Shown here: piece by piece, positions 10,803-25,212 of the stretch
How positions within the stretch are numbered: the stretch's first letter is position 1
Layout of the letters: every line of letters starts with the position of its first letter
IMG/VR virus record: IMGVR_UViG_3300044225_002737
Coordinates: 1 to 29,502 of that record
Length of the DNA: 29,502 nt
DNA from: a virus
Direction: 5' to 3' (one strand)
Program-made: the position numbers and the translations under genes
Notes under the pieces: model-generated
Database searches by the model: none
Told to the model about the DNA's origin: nothing
The model's input: the letters and a program-made list of their open reading frames with translations, nothing else

Positions 10803-10977
10803 AGGACCAAACGATTTAGAAGAAAGAATAGAGTATCTTACAAATCAAAATGAATTTTTAAAAAAGAAATTAAAAGAATCTGTAACTAAATGTAAAAGTT
10901 TTGAGGAAGAGTGTGATAGATTATTTGAAGAAAACACTAATCTTAGAATAGTACGGAACGAAGGCAAGGTTTTATGA
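10792..10977 (+). CDS. Leucine-zipper-like small protein
   Basis: 61 aa from GTG 10792, which has AGGAGAG just upstream. An earlier ATG at 10699 lies inside the zinc-protein gene in another frame and is less likely. The whole protein is heptad-rich (LEERIEYLTNQNEFLKKKL, then ECDRLFEENTNLRIV), so it should form a coiled coil. Its stop overlaps the next ATG. Function unknown. Confidence 0.7.
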   Translation: MNTRGPNDLEERIEYLTNQNEFLKKKLKESVTKCKSFEEECDRLFEENTNLRIVRNEGKVL

Positions 10978-11390
10978 ACGATGCAATGTTAGGATACATT
11001 GCAGGTTTATTCGACGGCGAAGGATCTGTATATTTTAAACAAACAAAACAAATCAGACACAATCGTAAAGGTAAACCTGTACATAATGTTTTAGTTATCC
11101 GGATGGAAATAGCTATGACGGATGAGCACGTAGTCAGATGGGTGCACGATGTATTAGGAGTCGGGGCCGTTGGACCTAGGAAAGTAAAACCAGGGCGCAA
11201 GAAACAATGGCGTTGGAGGTGCAGCCACAGAGATGCATACTTTGTAGCTCTAGCATTGTATGAACATTCAAGGGTTAAAACAAATAAATTACAACAAATA
11301 ATAGATCATTACACACAGAAAGATGGTAAAACATTTAATGGCAAGGTGGTGAGTCTAGAGCAGTACAAGGAGGCAATGAGTTTAGAATGA
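10974..11390 (+). CDS. LAGLIDADG-type homing endonuclease
   Basis: 138 aa. One LAGLIDADG motif at residues 6-18 (LGYIAGLFDGEGS) with the catalytic acidic residue; the single motif implies it works as a homodimer. After it come beta strands and basic residues (VKPGRKKQWRWRC) suited to DNA contact. It is free-standing rather than inside an intron or intein, and both ends overlap neighbours by 4 bases, so it is well settled in the operon. Such enzymes cut DNA and spread by repair. No interrupted gene is visible nearby. Confidence 0.85.
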   Translation: MNDAMLGYIAGLFDGEGSVYFKQTKQIRHNRKGKPVHNVLVIRMEIAMTDEHVVRWVHDVLGVGAVGPRKVKPGRKKQWRWRCSHRDAYFVALALYEHSRVKTNKLQQIIDHYTQKDGKTFNGKVVSLEQYKEAMSLE

Positions 11391-14330: not shown

Positions 14331-14696
14331 TTGAAACCAGAGGCTAAATTATATAGTGATCTTAAAAAAACAATTACAAAAATTTCGTGGAATAGGCTTG
14401 AAAACCGTAGCTTACTTGGTACTCCTGACCTATTGGCTTATGCTCCTAGTGGGACCTTTTTTACAGTAGAACTGAAGTATACATCTGCCTACAAAATACG
14501 TTTTTCACCCCACCAAATAGCCTTCCATGTGAAACATCCACAGAATACATTTATCCTTGTGGCCTGTACCCTGGATAAGGGGAAGGTACGCTTGTACCCT
14601 GGATCAGAAATTATTTCTCTTGTGAGGGAAGGTTTGCGCCTGAGCCCTTTGGCTTGTGGCTGGGACGCTTGCCAGCTTGCGCTTGAGCGCTTGTAG
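14331..14696 (+). CDS. PD-(D/E)XK endonuclease-like (VRR-NUC type)
   Basis: 121 aa from TTG 14331, the only start before the upstream stop. Restriction-endonuclease fold signs: GTPDLLAY with Asp, then FFTVELKYTS giving the E-x-K pair, then a SPHQIAFH helix. This is close to the VRR-NUC layout found in small phage nucleases that cut branched or mismatched DNA. A role in resolving replication or packaging intermediates is inferred. The 3' end overlaps an opposite-strand microgene by 86 bases, in a GCTTG-repeat region. Confidence 0.75.
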   Translation: MKPEAKLYSDLKKTITKISWNRLENRSLLGTPDLLAYAPSGTFFTVELKYTSAYKIRFSPHQIAFHVKHPQNTFILVACTLDKGKVRLYPGSEIISLVREGLRLSPLACGWDACQLALERL

Positions 14697-14787
14697 GCTT
14701 GTTGCTTGCGGCCTTGTCCGCTTGTTCCTTTTCGAATTGCTTTCGAATCTTTGCCAGCTCCTTGTAGTGTTTCGGGTGTTTAAACAT
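14611..14787 (-). CDS. Small basic protein, coupled to GP88 gene, antisense to the nuclease 3' end
   Basis: 58 aa on the minus strand. The ATG at 14787 overlaps the GP88 stop as TGATG, a classic coupling signal. It begins MFKHPKHYKELAKIRKQF and continues with a low-complexity Ala/Ser/Gln/Lys/Gly tail (NKPTSAQAQAGKRPSHKPKG). The tail arises from CAAGC repeats, read as GCTTG on the other strand, where they encode the C-terminus of the nuclease. Probably a flexible nucleic-acid- or protein-binding peptide; unknown function. Confidence 0.55.
   Translation of the reverse strand: MFKHPKHYKELAKIRKQFEKEQADKAASNKPTSAQAQAGKRPSHKPKGSGANLPSQEK
14650..14726. repeat. Dense GCTTG pentamer cluster
   Basis: About eight GCTTG words occur in some 75 bases, without strict spacing. 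The stretch is GC-richer than its surroundings and is read in both directions by overlapping convergent genes. It also recurs singly in the GP88 region and at 15446 and 15515. It may be a codon by-product or a replication or packaging word. Confidence 0.5.
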
Positions 14788-15392
14788 CAGTGAGCTAAAT
14801 AAGCAATATTTTTGATTGACTTATCCCAACACGCTCTGCAGCTCTTGCACTCGTTGCCCTGGTTAGGTGCTGGACAATTAGCCTTAGTTTTATCAGTGAC
14901 CACGGTTGAAGTATTAGGCCAGCCGCCCGCCGCTTCCTGGTCAATCATTGGCATTGAAAATCTTATATTTAAATTATCAGGCGCAGCCGGTATAAATTTT
15001 TTTACCCAGGCTTCACGGGTTGGCAGCCAGTGATCAACCGACGGCGTCAGTTTACAAACTTTGAAAATTTTTGCTAAGTGTTTCAGGTCCTGGATATCTC
15101 CCGAGTCGTGCCACCTAAATTCTTTAGATCTTTTATTATTTATTTGTAATGCCATGGCCTGAACCCATCTCCGATCTTTAATTGCTTTTAGTCTGTAGTA
15201 TTGTGCATTTTGTACAACTTTAAAAACATAGCAACCTTTTAAAGCATAACAATCATAACAAGTCGAGCCCTTAACATTTTGCAGCTTGCCGCCGGTCTTG
15301 CATTCTTTAGCTGGTAACCCGTAAGACCATCCAGGCATTTTTGAAGGCTTGCTCAGGCTGCCTGTAATTTCTTTTGCTGTTTTTATATCCAT
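14787..15392 (-). CDS. GP88 (gene product 88) family protein
   Basis: 201 aa. It fits the GP88 domain known from mycobacteriophage gp88 and many marine phages: LSKPSKMPGWSYGLPAKEC near the start, CYDCYALKGCYVF (~45-57), FRWHDSGDI (~92-100), HWLPTREAW (~121), and a Cys-rich end (NCPAPNQGNECKSCRAC). Many Cys residues suggest zinc or Fe-S binding. Its function is unproven. It has its own strong minus-strand promoter (P5) and an AGAAAGGA ribosome site, so it forms a small separate operon with the microgene below it. Confidence 0.82.
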   Translation of the reverse strand: MDIKTAKEITGSLSKPSKMPGWSYGLPAKECKTGGKLQNVKGSTCYDCYALKGCYVFKVVQNAQYYRLKAIKDRRWVQAMALQINNKRSKEFRWHDSGDIQDLKHLAKIFKVCKLTPSVDHWLPTREAWVKKFIPAAPDNLNIRFSMPMIDQEAAGGWPNTSTVVTDKTKANCPAPNQGNECKSCRACWDKSIKNIAYLAH

Positions 15393-15417
15393 AATTTTTT
15401 AATCCTTTCTATGTCCT

Positions 15418-15446
15418 ACAATATCCCAGGCCTGCGGACTTGTCAA
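15418..15446 (-). promoter_or_regulatory. Sigma70-type promoter P5 for the GP88 operon
   Basis: On the minus strand: TTGACA (complement of 15441-15446), 17-bp spacer, TATTGT (complement of 15418-15423). The spacer ends in CCTGGGA, so CTGGGATAT overlaps the -10 and matches nine bases of the operator-like 13-mer at 14057. An AGAAAGGA ribosome site follows. Confidence 0.72.
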
Positions 15447-15453
15447 GCTTGTT

Positions 15454-15474
15454 AGTTTAGAATCATTCTAAACT
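15454..15474. promoter_or_regulatory. 21-bp perfect palindrome, operator-like
   Basis: AGTTTAGAAT, a central C, then ATTCTAAACT: 10-bp arms with no mismatch, placed 7 bp upstream of the P5 -35 box. Position and symmetry fit a dimeric regulator or activator site. Confidence 0.6.
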
Positions 15475-15476
15475 GT

Positions 15477-15505
15477 GGGGGGCTTGTGCGTGGGCGGGCC
15501 CACCC
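15477..15505. repeat. GC-rich dispersed repeat, copy C
   Basis: 29 bases matching 17211-17239 at 27 positions. It contains GTGGG-CGGG-CCCAC, which can fold as a tight hairpin, and a GGGCCC core. It stands out sharply from the AT-rich background. Confidence 0.75.
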
Positions 15506-15551
15506 AAAAAAAATAGCTTGAGGACTTTAGCCTGTCCCCTGAGGCCCGGAC

Positions 15552-15722
15552 CAGTGAGCTAGTTGGTTATTATCTAGAATACCTATATCTCTCACTGATC
15601 CCAGGTCCTGCTAGCTGAATTTAATTCGACACAGGACCAGGGATCAGGTCCAGGCCTATAGCTTTAATTCTAAATTAACCTGGACCATGGCTGATAGTGT
15701 GCACACCTTAAAGCAGTCAGCC
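15552..15722. ncRNA. Tandem hairpin array in a 445-bp non-coding gap; ncRNA or origin candidate
   Basis: The gap 15393-15837 has no plausible gene. Four consecutive stems were found: CAGTGAG/CTCACTG (15552-15558 with 15591-15597), a 14-bp stem with one A-A mismatch (15597-15610 with 15632-15645, GATCCC-A-GGTCCTG), GGTCCAGG/CCTGGACC (15647-15654 with 15679-15686), and GGCTGA/TCAGCC (15689-15694 with 15717-15722) enclosing the palindrome GTGTGCACAC. TTAATTAA-rich DNA follows at 15730-15770. This could be a structured RNA, a single-strand origin or a packaging element. No matching named RNA family was recognised. Confidence 0.5.
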
Positions 15723-15784
15723 GCCGCTCAAATTAATTAATTATCTAAACAAGTAAATTAATTAATATATCCCATATAATCCTA

Positions 15785-15813
15785 TTGACAATGATTGTCA
15801 AGTAGTTTATAAA
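15785..15813 (+). promoter_or_regulatory. Sigma70-type promoter P3 with palindrome over the -35
   Basis: TTGACA 15785-15790, 17-bp spacer, TATAAA 15808-15813. The -35 starts a perfect 17-bp palindrome, TTGACAAT-G-ATTGTCAA (15785-15801), so a dimeric regulator bound here would block RNA polymerase. An AGAAAGGA ribosome site and ATG 15838 follow. Confidence 0.75.
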
Positions 15814-15837
15814 AATAATTAACAGAAAGGATAAAAC

Positions 15838-16413
15838 ATGGCAAAAAGCACAATGCAAAAATGGCAACGGGACCACTTTGTATCCGAGTTAAACCGGAAC
15901 TATGACCCGTTGATTAACGCTGCGGAATTGAAATTAAAATCAATAGAAGCAGAAGCAATAGAGATAGCAGAAAAAAATCTGGCAGATGATATTGGCGCAA
16001 CACCAATTATTGAAGAGCTGCAGGAAGCTATTAATAATGTTAAAACTAAAATGAGTAAAGCGGCAAGGTTTTTTAATAAAACCAAACAAGCTAAAAAGGA
16101 TATAAATTATAAATTCAAAGAAAAGGATTTTGATTTATTTGGTTATGGTTCAAGCCGTATAACTCCGGACGATTGCTGGGAACAAATAAGAGACTGGGCC
16201 GGGGACTTTGCACGGGCAAAAATTAAACAAACACCCGAGGGCAAAGTGCTTGCAACATTGGAGGAAAATAAAAGGGCTTCATATAAAGAAATCATGGAAG
16301 CAGGAAGCCCGGACAGTTTAAAAACTAAACTCCATAACAACCTACAAAAAGACGGTTTAAGCTGGAATAGAGAAGTAAAAGCTTTACCACCAATAGATGA
16401 AACAATTAATTAA
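15838..16413 (+). CDS. Hypothetical helical protein
   Basis: 191 aa, mostly helical and charged: an EAEAIEIAEKNLADDI segment, then a KTKMSKAARFFNKTKQAKKDI basic region, an aromatic KDFDLFGYGSSRITPDD section and a helical tail. No membrane segment or known motif. It is driven by P3 and has a good AGAAAGGA ribosome site. Function unknown; it forms a small promoter-rich cassette with the next three genes. Confidence 0.78.
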   Translation: MAKSTMQKWQRDHFVSELNRNYDPLINAAELKLKSIEAEAIEIAEKNLADDIGATPIIEELQEAINNVKTKMSKAARFFNKTKQAKKDINYKFKEKDFDLFGYGSSRITPDDCWEQIRDWAGDFARAKIKQTPEGKVLATLEENKRASYKEIMEAGSPDSLKTKLHNNLQKDGLSWNREVKALPPIDETIN

Positions 16414-16421
16414 TTTAGTTG

Positions 16422-16459
16422 TTGACAATATCTGGGATATCCTGTAATATCCCAGATAT
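16422..16459 (+). promoter_or_regulatory. Promoter P4 with 32-bp palindromic operator
   Basis: TTGACA 16422-16427, 17-bp spacer, TAATAT 16445-16450. Two 13-mers, ATATCTGGGATAT (16428-16440) and its exact reverse complement (16447-16459), flank a 6-base centre, so the spacer, the -10 and the start region lie in one perfect inverted repeat. The same 13-mer is at 14057 in P7. Confidence 0.8.
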
Positions 16460-16476
16460 AAAAGAAAGGATATAAT

Positions 16477-16689
16477 ATGAAAACAATAAAAATAAAAGAA
16501 GGTACAACAGGGCTTATCTCATACAAAGCAGATAAATATGGTAAGTTTATACACAGACCATTTAAGTGGGATAGTAAATGCACCTTCACAGAAAAGCACG
16601 TTATATATTTTGACACGTTCAGAAAAAATTATAGATGTGCAAAAAGACCAGTTAAGATGAGCGCAAACCAGGAAAGGAAGGCAGGATAA
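16477..16689 (+). CDS. Hypothetical small basic protein
   Basis: 70 aa, basic and aromatic: KTIKIKEGTTGLISYKAD strands, then KYGKFIHRPFKWDSKC, and a Lys/Arg-rich end (YRCAKRPVKMSANQERKAG). No family recognised. It lies 18 bases after the P4 operator with an AGAAAGGA ribosome site, so its expression is probably controlled by whatever binds there. Confidence 0.72.
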   Translation: MKTIKIKEGTTGLISYKADKYGKFIHRPFKWDSKCTFTEKHVIYFDTFRKNYRCAKRPVKMSANQERKAG

Positions 16690-17207: not shown

Positions 17208-17271
17208 CCTGGGGGGCATGTGTGTGGGCGGGCCCACCCCCTGGGGGGCATGTGACCGGGCGGGCCCACCC
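17208..17271. repeat. Tandem GC-rich 32-bp repeats (copies A and B) upstream of terL
   Basis: Two adjacent 32-bp units, 17208-17239 and 17240-17271, are identical except at three positions. Both carry GGGCGGGCCCACCC. A third, 27/29-identical copy is at 15477. The 17162-17382 gap holds these repeats, a TATGCA...TGCATA inverted repeat at 17188-17204, and no convincing gene. Next to terL they could be a packaging (pac/cos) site or a recombination or regulatory element. Confidence 0.75.
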
Positions 17272-24783: not shown

Positions 24784-24929
24784 TGAAAGGCCAGAAAAAA
24801 GTTAAGAAGGTAATGCGTGAGTTTAAAAAAGGCAAACTCAACATTGGCGGCTCTAAGAAAAAAGTAAAAAATAGAAAGCAGGCAATTGCGATTGCCCTTT
24901 CTCAAGCTGGAATAAAAAGGAAAAAATAA
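24783..24929 (+). CDS. DUF6496-like basic microprotein
   Basis: 48 aa from GTG 24783, which overlaps the previous stop. KKVKKVMREFKKGKLNIG followed by RKQAIAIALSQAGI is the pattern I recall for DUF6496, a family of small basic phage and bacterial proteins. Stop and next ATG overlap. Function unknown; RNA or DNA binding likely from charge. Confidence 0.72.
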   Translation: MKGQKKVKKVMREFKKGKLNIGGSKKKVKNRKQAIAIALSQAGIKRKK

Positions 24930-25078
24930 TGGGAAAACCAATAAGTAAAAGTAAAAATAAAGGTTTAGCTAAAATGGCTAAGACAGCAAAAGGAAAAGAA
25001 GCAATTAAAAAAATGGGTTTTAATCCGGATAGAATGGTTGCTAAAAAAGGTGGAAGAGTAAAGAAGAGAAAAAAATAA
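24929..25078 (+). CDS. Basic microprotein with K-K-G-G-R-V word
   Basis: 49 aa, extremely Lys-rich. A GKEAIKKMGFNPDRMVAKKG segment leads to KKGGRVKKRKK at the very end. It overlaps both neighbours by one base. No family recognised. The terminal word repeats in other late genes. Confidence 0.6.
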   Translation: MGKPISKSKNKGLAKMAKTAKGKEAIKKMGFNPDRMVAKKGGRVKKRKK

Positions 25079-25212
25079 TGGCACGTAAAGGTTTATACGC
25101 GAACATTCATGCCAAAAGAAAACGTGGTGGTAAAATGAAAAAGAAAGGTGCAAAGGGTGCACCGACTGCAGCTAACTTTAGAAGAGCTGCACAAACGGCG
25201 AGGAAAAGATAA
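25078..25212 (+). CDS. Basic microprotein
   Basis: 44 aa: MARKGLYANIHAKRKRGG, then KGAKGAPTAANFRRAAQTARKR. I recall this GLYANIHAKRKR...GAPT...AA.TA pattern from small proteins of many phages, so it is real despite its length. Function unknown. Confidence 0.7.
   Translation: MARKGLYANIHAKRKRGGKMKKKGAKGAPTAANFRRAAQTARKR

Follow-up and report, generated by a model that had tools for sequence, protein, structure and literature searches.

The largest non-coding gap of the window, a 29.5-kb DNA fragment (29,502 nucleotides) from a pelagiphage related to HTVC027P and 023Pt_psg01, holds an array of four hairpins. Comparative sequence analysis shows pairing on one strand, a fixed place and orientation, a promoter, and the exchange of hairpins between phages. 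With moderate confidence, we interpret the array as the main part of a stand-alone noncoding RNA of the phage, ~260 nt long and running on the minus strand from about 15766 to 15506. An undescribed phage noncoding RNA was among the readings offered in the original prediction, and it is supported by strong covariation, strand-specific wobble, a conserved promoter and the absence of an Rfam match. Searches of Rfam and of the open literature, the latter covering pelagiphage stem-loops as well, yielded no structured noncoding RNA of HTVC023P-type pelagiphages.

The array lies between divergent genes

HTVC023P-type pelagiphages rank among the most abundant viruses on Earth, and their hosts are the most abundant bacteria of the ocean. 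The non-coding gap that holds the whole element (15393..15837, 445 nt) is indeed the longest between main ORFs, barely above that at 24784-25212 (429 nt), and contains no ORF of 60 aa or more, as had been noted. It is flanked by the divergent genes gA and gB, with two terminase genes, TerS (PF03592) and TerL, farther out on either side. gA (14787..15392, minus strand) encodes a putative GP88-family protein (PF17338), the homologue of HTVC027P gp33; the predicted structure of this GP88-like protein (pLDDT 92) gave no PDB match at E <= 0.001. gB (15838..16413, plus strand) has no family assigned, and other genes occupy its place in many relatives. ARAGORN found no tRNA or tmRNA gene in the window, and blastn of the gap against phage records found no homologue.

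Several other features of the window were recorded. A small nuclease-like gene (14331-14696), matching PHROG 2165 and more weakly endonucleases and Holliday junction resolvases, adjoins gp88 in most relatives, and a free-standing LAGLIDADG-like homing endonuclease gene lies at 10974-11390, with weak homologues in many relatives. At 16423-16467, a long palindrome, ATATCTGGGATAT-N6-ATATCCCAGATAT, coincides in part with the promoter of the gene at 16477 and is probably an operator. A 32-nt GC-rich element (GGGGGGCTTGTGCGTGGGCGGGCCCACCC) occurs in the gap at 15474-15505 and in tandem before TerL (17208-17239 and 17240-17271); related GGGCCCACCC words are found at intergenic sites of relatives, and the element is possibly a regulator or a terminase site.

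All four stems are present, with 7 bp, 15 pairs plus one mismatch, 8 bp and 6 bp, and all are assigned to the minus strand. Hairpin 1 (15548..15601) pairs 15552-15558 with 15591-15597 and shares bases of its 3' arm with the 5' arm of hairpin 2 (15595..15647; 15595-15610 with 15632-15647), which belongs to a constant-stem family with a conserved mismatch (A.A on the plus strand, U.U on the minus strand) and a variable head. Hairpin 3 (15647..15686; 15647-15654 with 15679-15686) carries a conserved AT-rich head, and hairpin 4 (15689..15722; 15689-15694 with 15717-15722) has a near-identical copy in the relative L099, where the stem GGCTGA/TCAGCC becomes GGTTGA/TCAACC. The strict end-to-end layout first described does not hold: hairpins 1 and 2 have CTG (15595-15597) in common, and hairpins 2 and 3 base 15647, so that neighbouring hairpins, overlapping by 1-3 bases, would compete for these positions. 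The proposed re-pairing of the stems into other registers is plausible from the sequence, as neighbours have words in common and, in 0.71 of cases, the segments that separate constant-stem hairpins are self-complementary beside the arms, compared with about 0.4 after shuffling.

Folding of the hairpins is more stable than that of shuffled sequences on both strands (z = -4.9 plus, -5.2 minus; 0 of 200 shuffles equally stable), and the predicted 260-nt minus-strand RNA gives z = -4.9. The median fold z is about -2.8/-2.9 for the whole gap and -1.0 in a test of the 5' end. These signals are weak or without strand specificity, and our case is therefore built on covariation and wobble.

A constant stem with variable heads recurs in relatives

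Loci of relatives were first collected through protein homology to gA and gB, blind to hairpins. All these relatives have the gap upstream of gA, with a mosaic content. Among 74 non-redundant relatives picked by protein homology alone, 50 carry a hairpin-2-type stem in the gap and 24 lack it, 4 of the latter having gaps too short to judge. On the minus strand the constant stem reads CUGAUCCC-U-GGUCC / GGACC-U-GGGAUCAG, with a conserved U.U mismatch (plus strand, CTGATCCC-A-GGTCC / GGACC-A-GGGATCAG). The 14-mer CTGATCCCAGGTCC is found in 40 of 93 gaps, some of which were found by pattern, compared with at most 2 for any shuffled 14-mer. The heads, from about 20 to 80 nt in length, are highly diverse: the 316 constant-stem hairpins collected represent 229 head families, of which 190 have a single member. 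This collection was partly gathered by pattern, which biases counts of conserved bases and leaves place and orientation unaffected, and the IMG/VR contigs in the comparison are mostly fragments.

Two further kinds of sequence were seen in these gaps. A second conserved structured element of ~105 nt, GTTGTARCTGYSGGATTDAACCSCTATAGTNCAGGTCGCGAT...CGCCTGCACAGGACAACA, lies between hairpins in L068 (2495-2607), L089 (613-725), L250 (1639-1751, minus strand) and 12 more relatives; several of its pairs are altered on both sides, no Rfam match was found for it, the window has no copy, and the element possibly represents a new RNA motif in its own right. Heptad repeats of the form GCTTGnn (CAAGCTTCAAGC, CAAGCCGCAAGC and similar) are frequent (for example L002:16500-16640 and L170:5890-5990). 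The annotated gene gp32 of HTVC027P (L002:16499-16747) consists of such repeats and a hairpin with GGACCAGGT/ACCTGATCC words, and this ORF is probably spurious.

Covariation and wobble point to a minus-strand RNA

In an alignment of 50 distinct hairpins, limited to the arms with heads cut to 4 nt per side, 99.1% of cells in the constant stem are standard pairs and 9 of the 16 pairs are altered on both sides. Covariation scores 0.428, compared with 0.05-0.07 when the partners are slid, and none of 500 shuffles, a control that ignores relatedness, reaches this value. The stem of hairpin 3 behaves similarly, with 4 of 8 pairs doubly altered among 5 relatives and a covariation of 0.425 (0 of 500 shuffles). 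A lack of compensatory changes in aligned homologues had been named as the outcome that would speak against the element; such changes were sought in the relatives, and found.

The pattern of wobble pairs is one-sided. On the plus strand the arms show 26 A.C and 2 G.T oppositions, which correspond to 26 G.U and 2 A.C on the minus strand, and the minus-strand RNA folds more stably in 72 of 81 hairpins (p = 6e-13). Across 207 hairpins with distinct heads, G.U outnumbers A.C on the minus strand by 29:4 at position 14 and by 60:4 at position 17; the ninth stem position is U.U in 169 of them, and the remainder are nearly all perfect U-A or A-U pairs. Since G.U exceeds A.C on this strand, minus-strand RNA is the likely functional form. 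Judged from the sequences, the one-sided pattern does not fit a DNA site bound by protein; it fits RNA and, less likely, single-stranded DNA.

This bears on the idea that the gap holds a DNA signal, either a packaging site (cos/pac) or a replication origin, which would agree with the location between TerS and TerL and with the recurrence of a GC-rich element (GGGCGGGCCCACCC) before TerL. Strand-specific wobble covariation and the diversity of the heads are ill-suited to a duplex site, and no skew minimum is present apart from the gene-strand switch, which makes such a signal very improbable. A replication origin, as originally suggested, is not supported: the GC skew merely flattens at the gene-strand switch, and the element goes with a promoter and a single strand. 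The parallel suggestion of packaging retains its position between the terminase genes, with nothing else in its favour.

The hairpins keep one place and one orientation

Among the collected loci, the gap accounts for 133 hairpins, with 2 doubtful ones at other positions of gA-bearing contigs. A pattern-only, orientation-neutral scan of 2.9 million viral contigs returned at least 136 hairpins in newly fetched contigs. Among the matches listed, all occur with the genes of this phage group and at this locus only, nearly always adjacent to gA or to a gene neighbouring it; wherever these genes were recognised, the orientation of the mismatch in the listed matches follows the gA strand with very few exceptions. 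Across 84,980 bacterial and archaeal genomes, the pattern matched one contig, which carries this phage's own genes. In L170, where a gA homologue was not detected, hairpins lie on both sides of the promoter block, and most switch strand across it, such that the outgoing transcript would carry U.U. The hairpin of 023Pt_psg01 is placed between two small minus-strand genes and gA and has an intercistronic look.

Separate promoters are predicted before the array and gA

A predicted sigma-70-type promoter on the minus strand (15773..15801, TTGACA-17-TATATG) precedes the array and is conserved in relatives. We identified 85 non-redundant cases of TTGACA-17-TATAT(A/T/G) before arrays, 71 with a spacer of exactly 17, with a -10 that is mostly TATATA or TATATT and lies a median of 115 nt from the first hairpin. 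The -10 of the window ends in G, and a generic promoter scan does not list it in that register. The sequence itself, together with an alignment of relatives, places a predicted divergent gB promoter at 15785..15813 (plus strand, TTGACA-17-TATAAA), and the palindrome TTGACAATGATTGTCAA is common to the two promoters.

The transcript would start at about 15766. The TTAATTAA-rich DNA that had been noted after the stems is present and moreover forms a hairpin of its own, a perfect A/T-rich stem of 11 bp (15732..15766, minus strand) at the predicted 5' end of the RNA; the L170 version has a one-base insertion in each arm and keeps the pairing. At the putative 3' end (15506..15539, minus strand), a terminator-like hairpin, GGGGAC-AGGCTAAA-GTCCTC (15539-15520), is followed by T8 (15513-15506). 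Terminator-like sites are present in 11 of 126 relatives, against 1.0 expected, and are thus not universal; in relatives without one, the RNA may run on into gA. A promoter scan predicts a separate gA promoter (15418..15446, minus strand, TTGACA-17-TATTGT), and 74 of 126 relatives have a promoter in the stretch that separates gA from the array, where 1.7 would be expected and the other strand gives 4. From these counts, one promoter belongs to the array and, in most cases, a second belongs to gA. The HTVC027P genes gp33 and gp34, the latter adjoining on the minus strand, form their own early-middle expression cluster, in a paper that does not discuss the hairpin array (PMC12753301).

In a different reading, the hairpins form a leader or intercistronic RNA within a transcript into gp34/gp88 and control its processing (e.g. 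by RNase III), stability or translation in cis. In nearly all relatives they share the strand of gp88 and precede that gene, terminators are rare, the psg01 hairpin sits between minus-strand genes, and the constant stem with its mismatch resembles an RNase III substrate. We regard this reading as rather doubtful, given the downstream gp88 promoter in 74 of 126 relatives, the hairpins of L170 where gp88 was not detected, and a diversity of heads too great for the control of one gene.

Hairpins are exchanged as cassettes

Hairpin 2 of the window recurs in five other phages with 96-100% identity over 52-53 nt and unrelated flanks, and one of these copies shows a compensatory pair change; where present, the gA genes of these phages are just 48-69% identical. 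The head of hairpin 1 recurs in L076 on a wholly different yet complementary stem. With identical 53-nt hairpins in diverged phages and unrelated flanks, the hairpins, on this comparison, behave as exchangeable cassettes, and recombination through the conserved arms would account for the swapping of heads in hairpin 2. That the heads are antisense to phage genes, or were captured from them, was considered as well and rejected: matches outside the gap are few and mostly non-coding, with clear targets absent.

Exact 53-nt cassettes in diverged phages would also be expected of single-stranded DNA hairpins that serve recombination or mobility, in the manner of integron attC or REP sites, and attC sites are likewise strand-asymmetric with variable tops (PMC2727003). 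They also share the imperfect one-strand hairpin, stem interruptions and cassette turnover, a resemblance only. However, the gene cassettes between hairpins and the RYYYAAC/GTTRRRY stem ends of attC are absent here, and the strong promoter and wobble evidence indicates RNA. Searches of 13 related records found no tyrosine integrase in cis (PF00589; 14 of 14 controls detected), no Y1 HUH transposase (PF01797) and no reverse transcriptase (PF00078), which removes integrons, REP/RAYT elements, retrons and diversity-generating retroelements as candidates, although a host-encoded integrase is possible. The array keeps to a single locus behind a promoter and is not dispersed over intergenic sites as in REP/RAYT; RNA is the better fit for its frequent G.U pairs and for the 5' hairpins. 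A role as single-stranded DNA is thus unlikely.

Comparison with known RNA systems

The window and 12 relatives gave no match to Rfam release 15 at the gathering threshold; the best permissive matches, to microRNA models, were far below thresholds and chance-like. T4-type phages have promoter-early stem-loop cassettes (PeSLs), in which an early promoter and stem-loop modules are swapped at many intergenic sites. Our array likewise joins a promoter to exchanged intergenic stem-loop modules, but it occupies one locus with one constant stem in a fixed orientation, which would set it apart from PeSLs. TIGR-Tas arrays also consist of tandem stem-loops with variable parts, occur in phages and are expressed as an array (PMC12045711); there the stems vary, with constant box C/D motifs and 8-12-nt spacers (PMC12045711), whereas here a paired 14-position stem is constant and the heads vary. 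The array does not have the TIGR-Tas layout, and the Nop-domain Tas protein (PF01798) was found in none of 13 related records, with controls detected. GOLLD and ROOL are structured noncoding RNAs found in phages, with function likewise unassigned (PMC12286853); the present array is much smaller, modular, and without an Rfam match at the gathering threshold.

A model for the array

We propose that the sigma-70-type promoter, with the palindrome that it has in common with the divergent-gene promoter, starts the RNA, probably early in infection. The RNA would open with the 5' hairpin and, in this phage, probably end at the U-rich terminator. Its modules would be the hairpins, the chief one combining the constant 14-position stem, the U.U mismatch and a variable head. 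Most simply, the constant stem is a binding site for one protein, an RNA-binding protein or nuclease of host or phage origin, and the heads may supply a changing specificity in trans, as decoys or by base-pairing, with phages swapping heads and whole hairpins as cassettes.

We tentatively favour action in trans over a gp88 leader role, given that gp88 has a promoter of its own, that hairpins occur where gp88 was not detected, and that the heads are so diverse. Points against a stand-alone RNA are the terminators in just 11 of 126 relatives, the intercistronic hairpin of psg01, the 24 of 74 gaps without the stem, and heads without a convincing match to phage genes. More tentatively, there may be a trans-acting system whose constant U.U stem is recognised by a protein and presents a large repertoire of exchangeable heads; these would evolve as spacers or cassettes do, in an arms race against targets in the host or in competitors.

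The novelty lies in the architecture, which matched no family tested; the function is only predicted. If the element proves to be an RNA-processing or stability device, the novelty would be smaller. The element is widespread in HTVC023P-type pelagiphages, with one-strand pairing under strong selection and a cassette-like build, and because directional RNA-seq of the isolate HTVC027P already exists (PRJNA1253180), an anonymous gap becomes directly testable. If the trans-acting arms-race system is true, the commonest viruses of the ocean would possess a modular RNA weapon or decoy of a new kind.
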